Of a stretch of DNA of 64,000 nt, positions 2,297 to 20,541 are shown in pieces; positions within the stretch are counted from its first letter, which is position 1; every line of letters begins with the position of its first letter. The notes beneath the pieces were generated by a model. That model had not been told where the DNA came from. It was given only the letters and a program-made list of their open reading frames with translations, and ran no database searches. The stretch covers positions 3,286,001 to 3,350,000 of the forward strand of contig OY744470.1 of the NCBI GenBank assembly GCA_963556145.1. The letters are read 5' to 3'. The translations under genes and the position numbers were made by a program. The stretch comes from Hygrocybe punicea. Taxonomy: Eukaryota > Basidiomycota > Agaricomycetes > Agaricales > Hygrophoraceae.

Positions 2297-2757
2297 GAGA
2301 AGACGTGGACGGAGCGGAGTTAGTCCGGAGTTCCGGACTAAGTATTAAGATAACTAATGAGCTTAAGGGAAAGCCTTAAGTTTGAGAGTGGGTAAGAAAT
2401 AAGGAACTCAAGTTGATTTTCTGAACGGAGTTACAGGACATTGTAGTTCTAGTTTATATACTTGGTAGACTAATTGTCATGTCCTTGGAGACGTGAAGAC
2501 AATATGAACTCCGGAAAGAGGACCGGAGTTCGGAAGAAAATAAAAGGGATAAAAGGTTGCTATGTACGGTGACAAGTAAACAAAGGGGAGGAAGAAAAAA
2601 GGAGGTCGGAGTAAACGGAGATGGGGAAGAATAGTAATTAACAAGAGAAGAACAATAACGTACGCGAGAAGATAAGATAAGATAAGATAAGATAAGTCGG
2701 CGGAAAAGTCCGGAGCGGAGTTCGTCGGAATCCGGCGGAGCTGCATGGGATATGACA
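2188..2757 (-). repeat. 5' LTR of the gypsy element
   Basis: On the minus strand it starts TGTCATATCC and ends CTGAACA, the TG...CA form, and is 570 bp long. It lies between the gag leader and the 58-bp repeat array at 2758. It contains a TATATAAA-like box (2451-2460 on the minus strand) and a GATAA microsatellite (about 2664-2697). The partner LTR and the target duplication are outside the window, so the right boundary rests on the TG start and the abrupt change to array sequence. Confidence 0.72.
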
Positions 2758-3330
2758 GTTGGCTGACCCAACCGGATATATTGGCTGGCCATTAGGCATG
2801 GGTTGGCCAACCAGTTGGGATATTTTGGCTGGCCATCCAGCATGAGTTGGCCGACCCAACTGGATATATTGGCTGGCCATTAGGCATGGGTTGGCCGACA
2901 CAGCTGGATATATTGGCTGGCCATTAGGCATGGGTTGGCCAACCCACTGCCATATGTTGGCTGGCCATCAGGCATGGGTTGGCCGACCCACTTGCATATT
3001 TGGCTGGCCAGGAAGCCTGGATTGGTGGACTCTCTGGCTTATCTTGGCTGGCCATCAGGCCTGGGTTGGCTGACCCACTTACACATTTTGGCTGGCCATC
3101 AGGCATGGGTTGGCCAACCCACTGGCATATATGGGCTTGCCATCAAGCATGGGTTGGCCAACCCTCTAGCCTATATTGGCTCCCTATCAGGCATGGGCTG
3201 GGGCATTGGTTGGCTGACTAGCAGAGAAATGTGGTTGACCAGCAGAGATGGGTTGGCTGATGCATTGGCTGGCCAGTTAGCATGCGTTGATCAACAGCAA
3301 TGGGTACGTTGGCTAGTCAACCAATAGTGT
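2758..3330 (+). repeat. Imperfect tandem array, unit about 58 bp (left arm)
   Basis: About ten degenerate units share GGCTGGCCAT, AGGCATGGGTTGGCC and a short ATAT spacer. Short reading frames through it are repeat artefacts. The same unit occurs in inverted orientation at 5786-6016 and 7095-7285, so the arrays could be the arms of one large inverted-repeat element broken by the gypsy insertion on the left. Confidence 0.85.
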
Positions 3331-3949
3331 TTGGCCTACCATGGAACAGCATCTTGTGGGAATATGTTTTTACCAGAAAATGTTTTGCTCAGCCAGCACA
3401 AGCTGGTTTTCACAGAGGTGGGTGGTCATTTCACCTAGCCATTAGGTATGACAAGCAATCTGAGAGATTTATCTTGTCTGGTCACATGCTCCAATTTTAC
3501 AACAACCAATTACATGAAAAGTGGCTGGTTCAATCAAGTAATGTACTCACATATTTTCATCTTGAGAAGATATCTGAATATTATATTTGTGCACCTCCAA
3601 ACTTCCTCCCAGTGACTTAGGGTTAGGGTTAGCAGCGATAAAAATTAATAAATAGGCCCACAGTGATTTACATTACATCCACTAAAGTACAACAATGTGA
3701 AATCACACATTTAAGTGTGAAAAGAATACTATGAAGAAAATACAGTTGCAAAGAAAAGTCATTCAGTCTCAATCTCAAAGGAGGAGCTCTTCTCCTTCTT
3801 GATCAAGACTGATTGACAAGAGAAGTAATGTCAAAATTTTTGCAAACACAGAACAAACCAACCATGAAAATACAAATGAAACACAATACAAGAAATTGAG
3901 ACAAGTAAAACACATCACCTGTTGATACAATGTCAATAATACAAGGATT
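3331..3949. other. Intergenic stretch, no gene recognised
   Basis: Holds a 106-codon open frame starting at 3300 with no motif I know. A short run of TTAGGG units lies at about 3615-3632; it is too short to be more than chance or an interstitial trace. Downstream is AT-rich. Confidence 0.5.
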
Positions 3950-4400
3950 AATAATGAAAATGAGACTTACCCAATAAATTCTTGTCAATGCCACCAGGCC
4001 CGCTACAAGTAGGTTGCCTAGCCAGGAACTCAGGTGGATTCACCCTCCCTGAATTCCTAATCGAAGACCCATGGTGGCAAGCGCTCATTGCTGAGGACCC
4101 ACCACCGATGGTTGGGCATGCAGAGATACCACAATATTCACTAAAAAGTAATCCTTGAAAAGAGTATTGTTAGTAATCAGCTAACAGAAATCCCTTATCT
4201 GAATGCAAACATGACAAAGACAATACCTGACTCCGGAAAAAGCAACAGTAAATGTAGCCCTGTGAACTAAACAGCAAATCCAAAGGAAATCAGATACCTG
4301 TCATGCCAATAACACTCCAGAATCTCTGGTTGTTGCCCGGTACAACAGCCAATGATCCTGTAGTGTTATCAAAGGTGGCAGTGGTGGTGGTGAGGTAAGA
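3950..4400 (-). pseudogene. Single degenerate copy of the repeated exon family found at 25836-26810
   Basis: On the minus strand about 4127-3960 encodes GISACPTIGGGSSAMSAC followed by GRVNPPEFLARQ and TCSGPGG. The same segment occurs three times in tandem at 25960-26810. Farther upstream (about 4320-4350) it also shares the sequence around the CAACA...TGTTG hairpin seen at 25774-25806. Function unknown, Cys/Gly-rich. Not intact here. Confidence 0.6.
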
Positions 4401-4552
4401 AGAAATTTTCAACCGCGTTTGATGGGCTTGTAGTTATTTGGTCTTGTAGTTGTTTGTTCATGTGACCCGACGCATTGTTTTGACGGTCACACATGTGTCA
4501 CAATATAGAATGTCATGTCTGGGCGCCCAGACACCTGACCTTCCCACACTAC

Positions 4553-4699: not shown

Positions 4700-5785
4700 A
4701 CTGAGCTTATCATACCATGATGTTCACCCCATGACACCCTGAGTGGGCTCCCCTGCCCACTCCACTGGGCATAAACCTTGCCCCAATACTACCCTTTGTA
4801 CTAAGTCATAGATAGCATTCTAAATACAGTAAATACCTGTTCGGGTAACACTTCTGATGTCAGGAACAAGGGCGCTGATGGCCCGGAACTTTCCTGTCAC
4901 CGTTGCCACAGCCCTGCCCATCACAACAGGGTTCCTTGCTCATCGTCGGCGACGATGAGCTCAACTAATTCCTCATCCCGCCGTTTCTTTCCTTAGATTT
5001 TTGCATATGTCATGTATTAGTACTACTACATGATATCTAGAGACTAATATACATGAAAAAAAGCGAAATAAATGAGAAATAAAAGAAATATAAAATAGGG
5101 ATACATGGGGTGCTGGAACTGAATTGGTGGGTACTCACCTTCACAGAGGGGTCGGACTTGGTCCACCCTTGATGAGGAAGGGCCCCAGGGGGTGGGTAAG
5201 GAGTGGGGAGTATGCTGGGGGTCAGGGAAGGGGAGCCTGGGAAGGGGTCAGCAATGGGTGGTGGGGAAGAGGTAGGGATGCGATTTCAGTGGGGGAAAAG
5301 GATATGGGATGGATGGAGGAGGGTTTCCAGCTCCGAACGAGCGGCAGGAAGGGGTCAGTATGTGGGAGGAAAGGCAGGAGGGGGGGGGGTACTTACCTAC
5401 GCCATTAAGGCCCCCCACAGCCGTCCCTGTATTCCACTGTTAATAAAAACACTGGGGACATCATCCTCAATGTCCCCAGCGGCCCCATCGTGGTTTTCGC
5501 TGTCCCGATTGGTCCCGTCATCGAGTTGCGCGAGGGTGGTGATGGCGGCAGTTGTGGCGACTATACCTCGACAACGATGGCGCCGTTGACGACGCCATCG
5601 CCGTGGGCAACATTCTACATCGCCTTTGTCGTGTTCGTTGCTGTGCGCCCACGCCACTGCCGCTAGTTCCGATGTTCGAGGCCGTTGGTTGAAAACGGCG
5701 GGGGCACCCCTACTTGGTTTTGAGGGAGTCCAGAGGGATGCGCTTAATGCGAATCGTTGCCGACGTCGTCCTCCTCCTCGTTTCT
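4700..5785 (+). repeat. Dispersed repeat family E, copy A (one arm)
   Basis: About 1.1 kb shared in the same order with 60951-62046 and, as inverted arms, with 45000-46332. Landmarks are GATGTCAGGAACAAGGGCGC (near 4858), two GTGGGTACTCACC/GTACTTACC motifs (near 5128 and 5390), and a block beginning GGGGACATCATCCTCA (near 5453). Apparent open frames on both strands are G- or C-rich and are not conserved as protein, so I treat it as non-coding mobile DNA. A hairpin lies near 4938-4960 (GCTCATCGTC/GACGATGAGC). Confidence 0.7.
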
Positions 5786-11773: not shown

Positions 11774-12395
11774 TACTATCATCACCCCACACATCGGACA
11801 GGCCCAGCTTTCGGCCAGTCACACAATGTCACAGTGGCATATTTGAACCCGGCCTGTCAAAGCGTGACCAATTGCCTTTTTTTCTCCTCACGACAAACTG
11901 CATTTTACACCTAGAAAACACTTCTAAAATAACAATATGATGTATTATATGTCTTGTATCAAGTTTACTGTGGATTGAGTTATTGTTATTGTCACGTGAC
12001 TTGGCGGCGTGACCAAAACACTTCATTTTACTCGCGCAGAATGCAATTGCCATATCTCCCTCAAATCACATCCTATTGACTAGCGGTTGAAAATATGGGC
12101 TTCTACAGTCATTGTCTCGGTGTAAGCCACTTTCCAGACTCTAATTCGCTTTTTTTATAAATCAACTTTTTCGTAGGTTACACCATCGTGCAGCAGTTCT
12201 ATAACGAGCAAGCATCATCCTAGTCATGGGAAACTGGTGAGAATTTATTCTATGCTATACTATCTTGGTGCTCATAGCATTTAAGACTCAGTATACCTCT
12301 CCGAAGCTTCATTTTTCAACCTGCATCATTTCAGTTCGCATCAGCAGTACCGCCAGCGGCGCCGGTGACCCAGCTTCATAAATCGGTGTCATAGG
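11774..12395 (+). repeat. Left terminal inverted repeat of the mariner-like element
   Basis: Matches 20074-20541 in reverse complement nearly throughout, for example GTCACGTGACTTGGCGGCGT near 11991 and the segment ending TGTCATAGGT near 12394. About 160 bp unique to this arm lie between about 11818 and 11980. Confidence 0.88.
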
Positions 12396-12622
12396 TTGAT
12401 CAATCATGTATATACAGCCTATTGTCTATTATATGTTTGCTTATCCAGCCTTTGTCCGAGCCTCATGAGTTACATAGCAAAACATGGAAGAATATTCAAA
12501 CAAATGTTCTACACACTACAACATATCAATTGGATACCAGATCCCAGCTATTTTCCACAATACTAACAAGAAAAGAATGATTGGAAAGGGGAAAAAATCA
12601 AAGTAGAAGACCGAGATGTTGC

Positions 12623-13825
12623 CTACACGTATCCGCAGTGCCTAAACCACCCAAAGATATCATCACTAGTACTCTCATATAATGCTTCAAGCAAGACACA
12701 AACAACCTCCATTGATGAGAGTTCAGACATGGCAAGGCGGGCATATTCCCCATTGCGGCGAAGGTGATACTTCATGGCAGAAAACGCAAGTTCAATCGGG
12801 TTGTAGTCAGGAGAGTACGGCGGTAAAAATTTGTATCGCATGCCTCTAGCATGAAGAGAACAGCATGAGCCGCAGCCTTTAAGTTATAAGCATACTGACA
12901 TTGAGCACTCACCGAGAAGTAATAAGATCCAAAATCACAGGATTTTTGTGAATTCGGCAATTATCCATCACTATCACGGAGTTTGGTTCTGGAAACGGGG
13001 ACATCTGATCTAACAAACGAGAGATGAAGTCATGGAAAAGATCTGAATCGAATGAGCCTTCGATGATATCACAATGAAGGATGCCATCATTGAGAGACAG
13101 TGCTGGTAGTACTGAATAGCTACAAGAAAAAGGCTCAACAGTACTGCCCATGATAATAAAAGAGAGAATTACCATCGCCCACAGCAGAAAAATGCTTTCC
13201 GAGTAGCTGGCCTCCCACGGATGGCCCAGGCTCTCCCCCGATATGTTGTGCGGTGATCAACTGCACTCTCGTCAACAAAGACAAGCTGATTAGCTTCATA
13301 GGTCCCAATCCGAGCCGCAAAGTCTGTTCGTAGCTCTGCACTTCGTTCAATCGCTTCCCGAGTCAGCTGGGATAACTGTAGTATAAATATCATTGCTATA
13401 GAATTAGAAACGAGCACATACCCTCTTCATCGTGAATCCCCCTTTCCGCAGTGTCCGCCACACCGTATTTAGGGACACTGATACTCCACACTTTGCTTGT
13501 AAGTCCAAACGTAGCTCATCGAGATAGAGGTCGGGTACTCTGGTCATGGTGGCGAGCAAATGCTGTGATAATTGATCAGCGACATAAATGACACAAAAGC
13601 CCCATGTACTTCAACGTCATAATCACAGAGCGCCTGCTGGAGTTGATGTTTTACTTTTGATGCTGGCACCATGACAGCGCCTGTCTGCCCAAAGTGTGCC
13701 ATTATCCTTTCCACTGAGCGCTTGCTGACATCTGTGTACATGCAGACATCATCCATAGACATCGAAGTTGATAGACGGATGACAATCCATTGCACTAGCT
13801 CAGGGATGGCTTTGCCTTGAACCAT
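12623..13825 (-). CDS. Tc1/mariner (DD34E) transposase, five exons
   Basis: Cut-and-paste transposase. From ATG 13825, exon 1 holds a helix-turn-helix region (ELVQWIVIRLSTSMSMDDV, DVSKRSVERIMAHFG). Exons 2-5 follow introns with GT-AG ends. Catalytic residues: Asp in LVFVDESAVD, Asp in VIVMDNCRIHKN, and Glu in YSPDYNPIELAF. Joining the exons leaves 34 residues between the second Asp and the Glu, which defines DD34E. The protein ends WFRHCGYV at TAG 12623-12625. No internal stop remains after splicing, so it may be active. It is convergent with the left inverted repeat and diverges from the captured coatomer sequence that starts about 120 bp upstream of its ATG. Confidence 0.86.
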
Positions 13826-13944
13826 CAGTGATACAAGGTGAGTGGAAAGTTGCGAAGTTGAACTTGCTTACCATTTTCGCATGCTTTCCCACCATGACTC
13901 ATTTTCAATAACACTCAAGTTCACTATTTCATCTAGGACAATGG

Positions 13945-14150
13945 TTCAAGTGTGGGAGCTGGCTAAAAGGACGATAATTTCTCCCAGCACAGTCTCAGGC
14001 GCATGGGACGACACAAGCATGTTTGCTTTTCCTTCCTTCGTTTCACAGCTGAGCTAACATGTTCAAATTGGAACGCGAGAGGCCTGCATTTGCTGTTCAC
14101 CAAGACACACTGTACTACACCCAAGACAAATACGTCCGCGCATTCAATTT
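13945..14150 (+). other. Mosaic of rearranged coatomer-alpha fragments
   Basis: Three short pieces of the downstream coatomer-alpha sequence are stitched together. 13951-13980 resembles 15188-15215 (GTGTGGGA..CTGGC.AAAAGGAC). 13979-14030 resembles 16090-16175 with an internal deletion (TTTCTCCCAGCA..., CAGGCGCATGGGACGACACA). 14026-14150 resembles 15293-15467 with about 45 bp deleted. The last junction falls within the sequence encoding AFNFN. Confidence 0.8.
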
Positions 14151-14183
14151 CAACTGCTTGATGACTTCTGGACTACAGACTGC

Positions 14184-17100
14184 ATGCTTACAAAGTTCGA
14201 GTCGAAGAGTCACCGCGTAAAGGGTATGTTTACGATCTGCGCAGTCTTCAGCGTGACCAATACCCATTGCAGGATTGGCATTCCATCCTACCCAACCTCT
14301 CCTCGCGGCTAGCTTACACAACGGGAGTGTTCAGTTGTGGAACTATCGCATGGGGGTACTCGTAGACTGATTTGAGGAACACGAAGGCATGCCGCAACAT
14401 ATGACAGGGCAGTCACTCGATCCTGATTGATTCATATAGGTCCTGTGCGAGGTGTTGCTATTCATCCCACCAGAGCCCTATTGGCTACCGGAGGCGACGA
14501 CTATAAGATCAAAGTCTGGGGTGGGTGTTATCTTAATTTTGCTTCACACCAAGGTCTGACTTGATTCAGACCTCAAGCCTCAAAGTAGGCGATATCTCTT
14601 CACGTTGCACGGACATTTGGATTACGTTCGCTCCGTCCAATTCCACCATGAAATGCCCTGGATCGTGAGTTACCCTTTTTATTGTGGAACGGGTGATTGC
14701 TTATTTTCGAGCAAAGATGTCTGCCTCCGATGACCAAACCATCCGCATATGGAATAGCACATCTCGCAACTGCATTGCTATTCTTACCGGTCATTCTCAC
14801 TTCGTCATGTCGGCCCAATTTCACCCAAAAGACGATCTTGTCGTTTCAGCCTCCATGGATCAGACTGTGCGAGTGTGGGATATATCAGGTCTACGCAAAG
14901 GCACACCGAATGCAGGACCTGGCAATTTGGAGAGCTTTGATACTTTCTCCACCGTCAAGTATGTTCTAGAAGGACACGATCGTGGAGTCAACCACGCCAT
15001 GTTCCACCCTTCACTTCCTTTAGATATATCGGCTGCTGACGATAGGGTCATAAAGATATGGAGAATGAGCGAGACGAAGGCGTGGGAGGTCGATTCGTGC
15101 TGGGGCCATTTCAATAATGTTTCTAGTGCTCTATTTCATCCGAAGCATGAGTTGATTGTGTCTTGCGGAGAGGACAAAACGGTTCGAGTGTGGGATCTGG
15201 CCAAAAGGACCGCGATTCAGACGTATAGGAGAGAGCATGATCGTTTTTGGGTTCTGGCTGCCCATCCTCAACTGAATCTCTTTGCTGCTGGTGTGCTTTT
15301 CCTTCCTTCGTTTCACAGCTGAGCTAACCAATCCGGGATCATGATCGACAGGGCACGATAGTGGTCTTATTGTGTTCAAATTGGAACGCGAGAGGCCTGC
15401 ATTTGCTGTTCACCAAGACACACTGTACTACACCCGAGACAAATACGTCCGCGCATTCAATTTCAACACTGGTTCAGACATTGGTTTGTTGAGCGTGCGC
15501 AAGTTTGGAAGCCCATATGTCCCGCCAAGAACGCTGAGCTTCAACCCGGCGGAACGTGCAGTCATCCTCACCATTTCGTCAGATAATGGAATATTTGAGT
15601 TGACTAGTCTCCCAACGCAAGTGCAGGGAGAAGTGAAAGATTCTTCTGTGGACGGGAAGAAAGGTAACGGACAGAGTGCTATTTTTGTTGCGAGAAATAG
15701 GTTTGCGGTATTGAATAAAACTACACAGGTTAAGTTTCACCGTGCTCGCGCATAGGTCTTCATCTGACATGCGCACAACAGCTCATTGAGGTTCGGGACC
15801 TCTCAAATTCCGTCGTCAAAACCATCAAACCGCCGGTGCAGACTAATGAGATTTTCTATGGAGGCACTGCCAGTCTCATCTTGAGCTCCACCTCTTCTGT
15901 CGTGTTGTATGATATTCAACAACAAAAGACCGTTGCAGAAGTAAACAGTCCACCTGTGAAATATGCCATATGGAGTGGGGACGGATCGTTGGTTGCTTTG
16001 ATGAGCAAGCACAGTACGTCTTGCTTTTCGATCCCTTATCACAGTCTTATTCTGTTTTGGTGTTCTGCTTTCCCTCTTAGCTATTACCATTGCAAACAAG
16101 AATTTCTCCCAGCATTGCCTCATTCATGAAACCATCCGAATCAAGTCAGGCGCATGGGACGACACAGGCGTGTTTATATTTTCCACACTCAACCACGTCA
16201 AATATTGTCTATCACAAGGGTACGTTAGCATACCGCCTGGCGTCACGACTGTTCGTAATCTGAATTTGTAATTTAGCGATCATGGTGTCATCTGCACTCT
16301 CGATAACCCCGTCTACTTGACCCGAATCAAAGGCAAAACGATACATTGCCTCGATCGCTCAGCCCGCCCACATACTATTACCTTTGATCCAACGGAATAT
16401 CGCTTCAAGCTCGCACTGTTGCATAATAATCACGAGGAGATGCTACATATCATCCGGACGTCAACCCTTCTTGGCCAGAGTATAATTGCTTACTTGCAGC
16501 AAAAAGGATTCCTGGAGGTGAGGAATATCTGCCTTCTAGTGCGAGATTGATTTGACTCTGGTGGCAGATTGCCCTGCATTTCGTCCAAGATAACAACACG
16601 CGGTTTGATCTCGCCATCGAGTGTGGTAATCTCGACGTTGTGATGGAAACAGCCAAAGCTATCGAACGGCCCGAATGTTGGGAACGACTGGCGCAGCAAG
16701 CACTGAAGCAAGGCAATCATACGGTTCGTAGACTTGTTGATGCCATGATTTATTAATCTTCTCTTGCTCCGTTGTACCCTGTAGATCGTCGAAAAAGCTT
16801 ACCAGCAAACTAAGAATTTTGACCGACTATCCTTCTTGTACCTTGCAACCGGCAGCAGTGATAAACTGTCGAAGATGCAAAAAATTGCGGAAGCGAGAGG
16901 CGACCCCATGTCGAGGTTTCACAATGCATTGTATGCAGGTGACGTATGCGGTTGCATTGCTGTTTTGCACGAAGTTGGACTTCGTGAGGGAACCATGATA
17001 TTTCTTTTGTGTTCTACCACTAATAATTCTTGACACAGATCCTTTGGCGTATAAGACGAATGGATTGGATGATCTGGCGGATGAAATCCAGCAAGCCGCT

Positions 17101-17490
17101 GGCCTGACTTCATTGGATATCGATGATGTACCATCATTTGGTTCATCAAATCTGAAGCCGCCATCGGTTGTTACTTCAACAACAAACCTCAACTGGCCAT
17201 CTGTATCTGCCGGTGAGAATTTTTTCGATTGTGCCCTGACGAATGGCAAGTTGGAAGTGGGTCTGGATGTTCCACACATCAACACCATCGATGTTACTGG
17301 TACTGCAGCATCTTCGGCTTTGGATGCCTGGGCCAAGGAGGAAGAAGTACACAACGGCATTGATCCAGAAGAAGGTAGATGGGAACTTGACGCTGATGTG
17401 GGGGTTGCCCACCAAAACTTAGTCGAGCAAGGTAGCAAGATGGAGCTCCTCAGTACACCTACGTTCGACATACATTTCATAGACATTTGA
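14184..17490 (+). pseudogene. Coatomer subunit alpha (COPI) copy, truncated, with introns retained
   Basis: Alpha-COP is the WD40 scaffold of COPI vesicles acting in Golgi-to-ER traffic. The ATG at 14184 begins MLTKFESKSHRVKG. Beta-propeller repeats follow ([68 protein letters not shown]), then the alpha-solenoid part (IRTSTLLGQSIIAYLQQKGF, DNNTRFDLAIECGNLDVV, IVEKAYQQTKNFDRLSFLYL). At least eight introns are present, one with a GC donor (14387-14439). A TGA at 14368-14370 replaces the expected Arg in DRFEEH. The frame ends at 17488-17490 just after GRWELDAD, so the conserved C-terminal coatomer domain (several hundred residues) is absent. It is a genomic, not retroposed, copy and lies inside the mariner-like element. 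Confidence 0.87.
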
Positions 17491-17664
17491 ATCACAATTT
17501 ATGAACCTTCTCATGCTTCATATATGTCACCGAAAAGCTTACTGCCAAACTAAATAGGGGGACATGGACTAGAGATAGACTCCGACAAATACACTAGAAG
17601 CGTGCGCAATGTTCCGTAGCTAAACTGAAAATACAGGCACGTTCTCAGGCAATTTTCCCCCCAT

Positions 17665-19838
17665 ATGACCCAGTTGCCAGTGCCTATGGGACAAGGAGCA
17701 GTAAAAGCACGACAGCAGGCAGCAAAGGCCAAACGCCAGGCCGATGCTGCTCTCAAAGGTGCAATTGGATGCATTGCCTCTCCCTAAACGACGCTGATTT
17801 ATTGCTACAGTCAAAACAGGTGGAAAAGACGATAGCAATGCTACAGAACTCACTGGACTTGCTCCTCCCATCCCTGTCCGTCCAAGCAGCCGTGCTTCAG
17901 CTGTATCTAATCCCCGTTCTTCGAGGAGTATGAAGTTGGTATCAACAAAGTCCTCTGGAGATCATGAAGTTACCACTAAACGACCTGTCCGCCAATCTGC
18001 AAAAGCTGTCAAGGCACTGTTGAGGGAGATTCAGGCAAGTGAGATCGAAGAGGAAGAGGACAACGGACCTGGATTGGAAGAGTCTCAAGATGAACCAGGA
18101 TATGCTGATGCGGATGAGGATGATCAAGACAAGGACGACTATGACGAAATTGGCGACAAGGAGAACTCGGACTTGGAGGAATCAGACGAAGCAAAGCCAG
18201 CTGCAAAGGCAAACCCGATGGCCGAAAAGGGCAAGAAAGCCTTGCCGACTGTCACGGCAGATGAGATTAGCAGCGAGTCATTTGATGAAGATGGTATGCA
18301 TTTCCAACCACACTTGGGGCCTCGTCTCACTCTTTCACACAAGTGAGGCCAGCTGTGAAGGCAAAATTAACTGCGAAGGCGAAATCAACTGTGAAGGCGA
18401 AATCAACTGCGAAGGAGAAATCAACTGCGAAGGCAAATCCAACAACCAAAAAGGACAAGACGATCGCAGTGGATGAGATTAGCAGTGAGGAGTCGTCTGA
18501 TGAAGACGGTATGCTTTGTTCTGACCGTACTCAGGCCTCATCTCATGCCATTTCCTTCACAGTCGCTTTCACATTTACTATGGAAGTGCTTAGTGCCTCG
18601 AAACAGTCCCGCAATATTGATGTCATCTCATCATCGGTCTCACTCTATTCTCTCCAACAGAAGATAGCAAGTTCTTTGAACATCTATCCTGAATCCTCAC
18701 AAGCACAATATCGCTTTAGTACCGATTCAAAGGACTCTCTCTCTTGCGATCTTTTAACTCACGGCCACTTCAACACACTTCTCCGACTTCTCCGCGAACG
18801 ATCCGTTCCAGCCAAGTTGGCCAATGGTTGGCGTTCGACTCGGAAGATGAAGGCATTTACATTGCAAGTCTCTAACAAAGGTGATTCCCCCTATGTGGGG
18901 TCCACGGATACAAAGGTACGTATAATTCTGTTGGATTCCTATCACGTTGAGTTAAATATTTTTCGCAGGGCGGTGGGTCTGCGAAGTCCAAAGCAGCTGC
19001 TGCTCTCAAAGAGCAGGTGAAGACTGCAGTGGATACTTTCCATGAACAACGCGTTACGGCCCGCCTCGCCATTACAGAGTACTGGACCTGTGAGATACAC
19101 AGTCTACCCAACAAGGCGTCGTTGTGCTTCAAGAATCCGTCAACGGGCTTATGTCATCCAATCACGGAGAATAATCTGAACCTTTGGGCAGCGCTTCATG
19201 TATGTATTTTTCTATTCATATCTATGATGCTAATTTTTTGCCAGGTTAAGGATCCTCATGCCAATCCTGTCAATGAGAAGCCGGCTGAGGTCAATGTGCT
19301 GGGAAATACTGCACGAGGACGACTGGCAGCTAAACCGTCTGCAAATCCCAATGACCAAGTCACATTCCCTTATGGCTGCTATCCGCCACCATTGATGTTG
19401 CCGGCAATGTATTATTCATCTATGGTAGCTCCTCAGATGCCGGCGGGATTTTTCCCGCCAGCTCCTGGATTCACTGTACCGCTGTCAGGTTTTTTGCCAC
19501 CTCCGGGACCACCCACGGTTTCTCCTCCTGTTCTTTCGCAACCATTGAATTATCCCCTCATCTCTGAGTGGATTGAATATTGCGACCGACATCCCAATCG
19601 TGTTGGCGGCAATCTCAGTTCTGTCATTCCAAAATTCCAGGACCAAGGCTTCCGCTACATAAATCAACTCACTGGCAGTCGTGTCACCATCGAAAAGCTC
19701 TCAGACTGGCTCTCCGTTGGCCCTTGGACAGCTGATTTAATCATCAGCTATGCAGAGGAGGATTGTAAACTGATCGCAACAGGTACTTTCAGGATGGAAT
19801 TGCCGCGTGGGTTGGTCGCGGCAGCAGAGGAAATTTAG
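17665..19838 (+). CDS. Accessory gene of unknown function, charged repeats and a SAM-like C-terminal region
   Basis: From ATG 17665 I can join six exons (introns near 17761-17811, 18294-18343, 18510-18562, 18917-18967, 19201-19244; all GT-AG). The protein opens MTQLPVPMGQGAVKARQQ, then has acidic stretches (EIEEEEDNG, DADEDDQDKDD), a Lys/Ala/Ser tract (VKAKSTAKEKSTAKAN), and a folded region near 18560-18800 (MEVLSASKQSRN, QYRFSTDSK). A Pro-rich segment is followed by a helical end (LISEWIEYCDRHPNR, FRYINQLTGSRVTIEKLSDW, ADLIISYAEEDC). Similar proteins are common and uncharacterised in Agaricomycetes. Because it is enclosed by the element's inverted repeats it may be cargo or an accessory transposition gene; that is inference. 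Confidence 0.68.
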
Positions 19839-20073
19839 TTTCGCTATCAACGGTCTTAGCCTCCCCCTTCACATATTCATGTATCAAGTGTTCTTTATTG
19901 TCCGAAGGTGTTTCAACACACCTGATTCTCTTCTCGACGGTTTGATGTGTTCAACACGCTTTTTTTATTATGCTACACTAATACATTCCACTGGTGATAA
20001 AAAATTGAGTTCTGAGACCAAGGCTGAATGAATGTACATTGTAATACTAGATAATGGAATGTACACACTACCT

Positions 20074-20541
20074 ATGACACCCATTTATGATGCTGGGCAA
20101 TGTCAAAGTTCATAATACCAACTGAAATGATGCCGGTCAGAAAATGATGCTTCGGAGAGGTATACTGAGCCTGGAATGCTATGAGCACCAAGATAGTGAA
20201 GCATGGAACAGATTCTCACCAGTTTCCAATGGCTAGGATGATGCTTGCTCATCATAGAACTGCTGCACGATGGTGTAACCTGCGAAAAGGTTGATTTATA
20301 AAAAAAGCGAATTAGAGTCTGGAAAGTGGCTTACACCGAGACAATGACTGTAGAAGCCCATATTTTCAACCACTAGTCAATAGGATGTGATTTGAGGGAG
20401 ATATGGCAATTGTATTCTGCGCGAGTAAAATGAAGTGTTTTGGTCACGCCGCCAAGTCACGTGACAATAACAATAAAATCGAGCGAGAAATTCGAAGTGG
20501 CCGAAAGCTGGGCCTGTCCGATGTGTGGGGTGATGATAGTA
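20074..20541 (-). repeat. Right terminal inverted repeat of the mariner-like element
   Basis: Reverse complement of the left arm without its extra 160 bp. The outer end is TACTATCATCACCCC on the minus strand, next to TA 20542-20543. Confidence 0.88.

Follow-up and report, generated by a model that had tools for sequence, protein, structure and literature searches.

A 64,000-nucleotide stretch of Hygrocybe punicea DNA (assembly GCA_963556145.1, contig OY744470.1, positions 3,286,001 to 3,350,000; G000:C36:3286001-3350000 in our numbering), here called the window, raises the question of how a Tc1/mariner-like transposon, a kind of element usually regarded as small and single-gene, comes to hold more than 8 kb of DNA including a piece of a housekeeping gene. 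An earlier note on the window had described an 8.8-kb element with TACTATCATCACCCC ends at 11774 and 20541, carrying a captured segment of the coatomer-alpha gene and an extra gene. Comparison with the whole 92.2-Mb genome leads us to a different account, in which we have considerable confidence: the element is an 8,491-bp DD34E transposon that possesses a second gene, it lies inside an unrelated miniature inverted-repeat transposable element (MITE), and its coatomer segment was likely acquired during template-switching repair.

Where, then, does the element begin and end? A genome search with the left end given in the earlier note resolved it into two repeats, one consisting of its bases 1–209 (11774–11982) and the other running from about base 207 onward. 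The first is part of a 275-bp MITE with the tip TACTATCATCACCCC of its own, of which the genome contains at least 8 further occurrences, 7 of them showing both halves; these counts are lower bounds, with 40 of 82 and 40 of 74 candidates scored. Positions 1–209 of uninterrupted MITE copies are matched by 11774–11982 at 98–99%, and 20474–20541 matches the right part of the same intact copies, both parts lying on the forward strand. The outer ends thus show what is expected of a MITE, namely a length of 275 bp, inverted ends, TA at the ends and several copies. When the window flanks are joined they align without gaps, inside the MITE, to two intact copies that have one TA in place of the window's two (11981–11982, which are the final two bases of the left part and stand in a TTAA context, and 20474–20475). 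Because the joined flanks rebuild the MITE with a single TA, the MITE was invaded by the element: the 8,491-bp transposon (11983–20473, tips TTGTTATTGTCACGTGAC), whose borders are fixed by its other copies, its tips and the empty site, is a younger insertion inside an unrelated 275-bp MITE. The single-TA empty site that the earlier note had suggested looking for therefore exists, for the inner element, as intact MITE copies. An 8.8-kb element ending at the outer tips would fit the fact that these are inverted, TA-flanked and almost perfectly complementary, but they bound 275-bp MITEs elsewhere, the window flanks rebuild one exactly, and other large copies have different flanks and the inner tips. 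We regard such an element as extremely improbable; the identity of the joined flanks with an intact MITE rules it out.

Self-comparison shows that the 8,491-bp element has terminal inverted repeats of 354 bp that are 94% identical (left arm 11983–12336 on the forward strand, right arm 20120–20473 on the reverse), and a further 28-bp arm block lies beyond the left arm at 12369–12396. The repeats are long, as had been claimed, but not the roughly 470 bp proposed, and the additional 160 bp or so assigned to the left side is MITE sequence and not part of an arm. Genome searches with the arms and tips found at least 15 copies with both arms, 14 of which have both tips, besides two or three single-ended remnants (L023, L025, L026). 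Copies spanning both ends, which the earlier note had also proposed to seek, number at least 15 for the inner ends; for the outer ones no second copy was found, a lack that the note itself had named as refuting its account. In the window and at loci L009–L026, TTA adjoins 28 of 28 ends with an exact tip, and the variant-tip end in L025 has it as well; in the copy at C34:6468515-6481517 the right tip is damaged, and that end was not scored for TTA. The empty site and the TTA at every scored end together indicate insertion at TTAA with duplication of TA. The flanks differ among the 11 copies compared, and the sharing of arms and contents by 15 copies is far beyond chance. This last observation bears on the idea that unrelated DNA lies by accident between two MITEs that were inserted independently. 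Similarly tipped MITEs are indeed present, among them pairs of inner tips about 383 bp apart, but here the outer halves form one MITE and 15 copies share both inner arms and the same contents; the contents common to the copies rule the idea out, and we give it practically no probability. What remains from the original description is a Tc1/mariner-like element far above the usual length; it is present in many copies, and with 8,491 bp, two predicted genes and a captured segment it departs from the usual short, single-gene form.

Does the element have the means to move itself? A predicted transposase gene occupies 12623–13825 on the reverse strand (exons 13825–13610, 13562–13422, 13375–13173, 13119–12913 and 12845–12623), and its five exons encode 329 amino acids with D154, D239 and E274, the 34 residues between the last two making a DD34E triad. 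The DDE_3 domain scores 90.7 bits against a Pfam cut-off of 28.6, and the closest outside transposase, from Amanita phalloides, is 60% identical. All 11 aligned copies retain the predicted splice sites. Six of them (the window, L009, L011, L012, L013 and L016) have an open frame, and in five it is broken, in L018 by a 1.4-kb insertion and in the other four by stops. The pooled ratio of amino-acid-changing to silent differences per site (pN/pS) among copies, L018 left out, is 0.42. The apparently complete DD34E gene reported in the earlier note is borne out in the window, where the predicted spliced frame is open.

Between the captured segment and the right arm lies the second gene (17665–19838, forward strand; predicted exons 17665–17758, 17811–18293, 18344–18508, 18563–18915, 18969–19199 and 19245–19838), which would encode a 639-amino-acid protein with an acidic, low-complexity first half. 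Its frame is open in 8 of the 11 aligned copies (the window, L009–L014 and L018), the defects being stops in L015 and L017, a frame shift in L016 and, in L017, loss of a donor site as well; five of the 11 copies have open frames for both genes. The pN/pS pooled over copies is 0.36, and for the last exon compared across five families it is 0.30–0.44, an uncorrected range with silent sites near saturation in several pairs.

That an extra gene is present was correctly noted before; that it is captured cargo is at odds with the company its relatives keep across the genome. A protein search of the genome with the second protein gave 94 matches at 83 loci, which were compared, in neighbourhoods of 12 kb, with 78 rows from 150 listed transposase matches. 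In the window family 15 of 16 second-gene loci lie within 12 kb of a transposase, and outside it 40 of 67 lie that near a listed transposase relative (33 of 47 at 42% identity or more, 6 of 8 at 36–41%, 1 of 12 below 36%). For the 47 closest loci alone, random placement in 2,000 draws put on average 1.1 of them, and never more than 6, so near a transposase, against the 33 found. The two genes of a pair are mostly divergent, as in the window, and on the same strand in some. With this proximity at 40 of the 67 loci outside the family, the second gene is, judging from these neighbourhoods, a regular part of the transposon lineage and belongs to its ancestral make-up; a one-off cargo gene is rejected by the same regularity. 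The steady company with the transposase, together with the conservation, suggests that the protein is likely accessory to transposition or regulation. One could suppose instead that this gene too was captured from the host, as its product combines the acidic first half with no known domain (Pfam searches with the protein and with its outside relative gave no match up to E 5) and no match among solved structures; a model of the last 97 residues (predicted local distance difference test score, pLDDT, 50) gave no Foldseek match at E 0.001 or better, and we claim no fold for it. The twelve distant loci below 36% identity, which mostly stand alone, could moreover be host relatives and reflect an older host origin. 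Against this supposition, relatives of the gene stand near transposase relatives in families for which no coatomer match was seen, and the last exon is conserved between families; we consider host capture of the second gene unlikely.

What, then, was captured? The segment at 14184–17417 (forward strand) is collinear with the resident coatomer-alpha gene between codon 4 and about codon 881, is 94.3% identical to it across exons and introns, and matches solved coatomer alpha structures, so the claim of an intron-bearing coatomer-alpha segment between the ends holds. The resident gene, on C1 from about 364,863, was the sole strong match outside the family among the candidates scored (150 of 447), and none of the outside proteins listed exceeds 88% identity to the coatomer protein of this genome; the best is from Collybia nuda, and the top matches, where named, are from agaricomycetes. 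The segment lacks the last third of the protein; the window copy has a stop at codon 49, and of the 16 copies or pieces compared 6 contain stops. At its left edge (13935–14183, forward strand) are shuffled scraps from six places of the coatomer-alpha locus, out of order, five of them at E 7e-5 or better and one, of 14 bases, at E 0.55. The right edge (17469–17553, forward strand) has scraps at 17469–17519 (E 0.001) and 17533–17553 (E 7.1, not significant alone). The coatomer segment is thus the capture, and it is genomic DNA with introns; bordering it on both sides are shuffled scraps of its own gene, an arrangement expected of template-switching repair, by which it was likely acquired. No coatomer match was found at loci of related transposon families among the scored candidates.

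All 15 both-arm copies (the window, 13 others and the copy on C6) contain coatomer sequence, in three states. It is nearly whole in the window, L017 and the C6 copy, as far as sequence covers the latter; eight copies (L009–L014, L018 and L024) share two deletions, corresponding to window 14868–15753 and 16622–17421; and four (L015, L016, L019 and L021) are without a 1.2-kb part, window 14155–15371. This last loss falls exactly between two 95-bp copies of a coatomer scrap (14060–14154 and 15373–15467), as might be expected from recombination between them.

Did the segment come from the resident gene? Divergence from that gene is uneven. In the first stretch (resident 1973–2656, window 14184–14868) the window copy differs by 22 silent changes and 1 amino-acid-changing one (silent divergence per site, dS, 0.249; amino-acid-changing divergence, dN, 0.003), dS is 0.082 in the middle stretch (resident 2657–4410), and in the last stretch (resident 4825–5212, window about 17030–17417) dS is 0.259 and dN 0.066. 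First-stretch dS is about 0.22–0.25 for the long copies and 0.039–0.060 for the eight short ones. We compared the resident gene with the ancestor of the three long copies, P being that of neutral carriage since the split, and obtained 21 silent to 2 changing differences in the first stretch (P 1.1e-5), 22 to 7 in the middle (P 0.0006) and 10 to 3 in the third (P 0.018). Because the divergence is largely silent in these three of four stretches, the segment likely derives from a coatomer gene that was functional in a diverged lineage, either another species or a very diverged allele, and not the resident gene. At 25 amino-acid differences the commonest state of 106 outside proteins is found in the element 5 times, in the resident gene 15 times and in neither 5 times, and the element has changed at sites invariant in all 106 (for example codons 130 and 242). 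As read from these substitution patterns, most of the silent divergence arose while both sequences were working genes, and the fewer changes at fixed sites arose later in the element.

Treating the whole of the coatomer divergence as a sign of foreign origin would nevertheless claim too much, since the divergence is patchy and differs by copy group, which requires conversion or recapture as well. It is conceivable, though we think it doubtful, that the donor was the resident gene after all, captured long ago and kept at a low changing-to-silent ratio by repeated gene conversion. The variation in identity along the segment and between copy groups (first-stretch dS 0.22–0.25 against 0.04–0.06) does mean that conversion or recapture took place, but conversion reduces silent and changing differences equally and would leave the 21 to 2 in the unconverted first stretch unexplained. 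The low ratio in three of four stretches, and the methionine retained at codon 4 of the segment's frame, might also be taken to mean that the segment functions in the element, kept as a gene by selection and decaying only recently. This seems improbable to us: the last third of the protein is missing, stops are found in the 6 of 16 copies or pieces, most of the segment is gone in 8 of 15 copies that still multiplied and 1.2 kb in 4 more, and the element is altered at the sites, such as codons 130 and 242, that do not vary outside.

The history that we favor, a working donor of a diverged lineage and a passenger segment in a two-gene transposon, would run as follows. The long arms would serve as binding sites for the transposase, which would cut at the TTGTTATTG tips and insert the element anew at TTAA with duplication of TA; the duplication and the TTAA context are seen directly, and the cutting and joining are deduced. 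A break in an ancestral element may have been repaired by copying from a coatomer-alpha gene, at first in scraps and then over 3.2 kb with its introns, and the copied DNA would since have traveled as a passenger between the two genes. Its middle stretch may later have been copied from, or to, the resident gene. The family would then have multiplied, half of its copies probably descending from a form without most of the passenger.

Several findings weigh against parts of this account. The element is known here from sequence alone, with exons predicted and cutting and joining inferred, and the N-terminal HTH_Tnp_Tc3_2 match of the transposase (E 9.5e-5, 23.0 bits) is below the Pfam cut-off of 31.5. 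The second gene is lacking within 12 kb at 21 of 76 listed transposase loci, and for its protein one outside relative was found, a 374-amino-acid metagenome protein (P0001; 38% identity, structure model with mean pLDDT 34). The scrap junctions, judged by eye, share few or no bases. In the last stretch the ancestor test gave 19 silent to 16 changing differences (P 0.08), which does not reject neutral carriage; after the copies split, changing-to-silent ratios were 0.61, 0.36, 1.18 and 0.28 by stretch, not uniformly neutral, and pairwise ratios among copies range from 0.28 to 1.28.

Related families have the same tips, and pairs of tips enclose both genes at C34:3369490-3378257 and C39:2222817-2229659. 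A second family (transposase 74–80%, second gene 36–48%) is seen, for example, at C2:2952075-2960406, C2:2981718-2990049, C34:207586-215917 and C8:4021897-4030176 (all G000). The last exons of its two genes are 8.3–8.6 kb apart at 11 of 12 loci counted and 9.7 kb apart at the twelfth, a spacing that suggests it likely carries several kb of extra DNA too; none of the scored candidates was a coatomer match in this family. Tip-word pairs about 383 bp apart (G000:C7:4779342-4779724, C35:2985584-2985966, C36:861138-861520 and others) are likely MITEs of the same tip family. Contig C2 has at its beginning (G000:C2:667-11394) a tandem array in which a tip-like word carrying 2 mismatches is repeated at 765-base intervals, at least 15 times, and at G000:C36:5.15-5.46 Mb there is a cluster of long open WD40-repeat frames (700–760 amino acids) weakly similar to the coatomer propeller. 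An Rfam search of the window and a Pfam search of two flanking open reading frames (ORFs) gave no match.

One fungus thus holds a whole Tc1/mariner lineage with a second gene, and one family within it with 3.2 kb of a housekeeping gene whose capture scars can still be read, which shows a small kind of transposon growing large and shuffling host genes. It raises the questions of what the partner protein does in transposition, by what route host DNA is copied into a cut-and-paste element, and whether DNA of working genes is carried between fungal lineages. As a tentative extension, this two-gene lineage, with its undescribed partner protein, long arms and TTAA target, may be a cargo carrier of agaricomycetes, and the coatomer piece of this family may have passed from one species to another and afterwards exchanged sequence with the resident gene.

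How does this element compare with known systems? Ant1 of Aspergillus niger, a Fot1-type element (pogo/Fot1 branch) of about 4.8 kb, is said to hold part of an amylase gene. A typical Tc1 element has repeats of about 30 bp and one ORF in about 1,300 bp, some, such as Minos, having long repeats (PMC7325037); the element described here shares the DD34E triad, DDE_3 domain, TA duplication and inverted repeats of Tc1-like elements but is 8.5 kb long, with two genes and 354-bp arms, and all of its scored ends adjoin TTA. The Tec and TBE elements of ciliates are multi-gene Tc1/mariner elements with a DD34E transposase, and Tec repeats are very long (PMC7325037). They resemble our element, by description only, in combining several genes with such a transposase; set beside the second gene in the same way, their extra ORFs differ, with one for a tyrosine recombinase, one for a zinc-finger protein and one unknown, and the host here is a fungus, while the accessible text of that source reports no host gene for Tec or TBE (PMC7325037). 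Capture in this superfamily, which the earlier note called rare, is less so by these accounts: 115 of 370 animal Pack-TIRs are TcMariner, with an origin proposed through gap filling or fork switching with template switching (PMC8277862), and in Pyrenophora tritici-repentis a Tc1/Mariner repeat with 46 members has an extra ORF (PMC3538342). Like Pack-TIRs our element encloses host sequence within its ends, and this sequence has moved along with it (coatomer in 15 of 15 both-arm copies) and is probably to be explained by template switching; unlike them, as they are described there, mostly single-copy and transposition-independent, it has an open transposase frame in some copies and 15 copies. 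The Pyrenophora repeat is likewise a fungal Tc1/Mariner whose ends enclose a second coding region, but it belongs to another fungal phylum, and as described its ORF has an osmosensory-transporter coiled-coil domain, with no coatomer and no scraps. In Pseudocercospora fijiensis a hAT transposon captured and amplified histone H3 (PMC6710886), a parallel in that a fungal DNA transposon took up and multiplied a housekeeping gene, though one of the hAT superfamily and, by that account, in copies inactivated by repeat-induced point mutation. In the title listings searched, which cover subscription journals in part, no title concerned a coatomer-carrying transposon or this transposon family. Given the Pack-TIR, Pyrenophora, hAT H3 and ciliate precedents, neither capture nor extra genes is new alone; what is new, as far as our searches reach, is a regular partner gene at many loci, TTA at each scored end, and a coatomer capture with readable scars.

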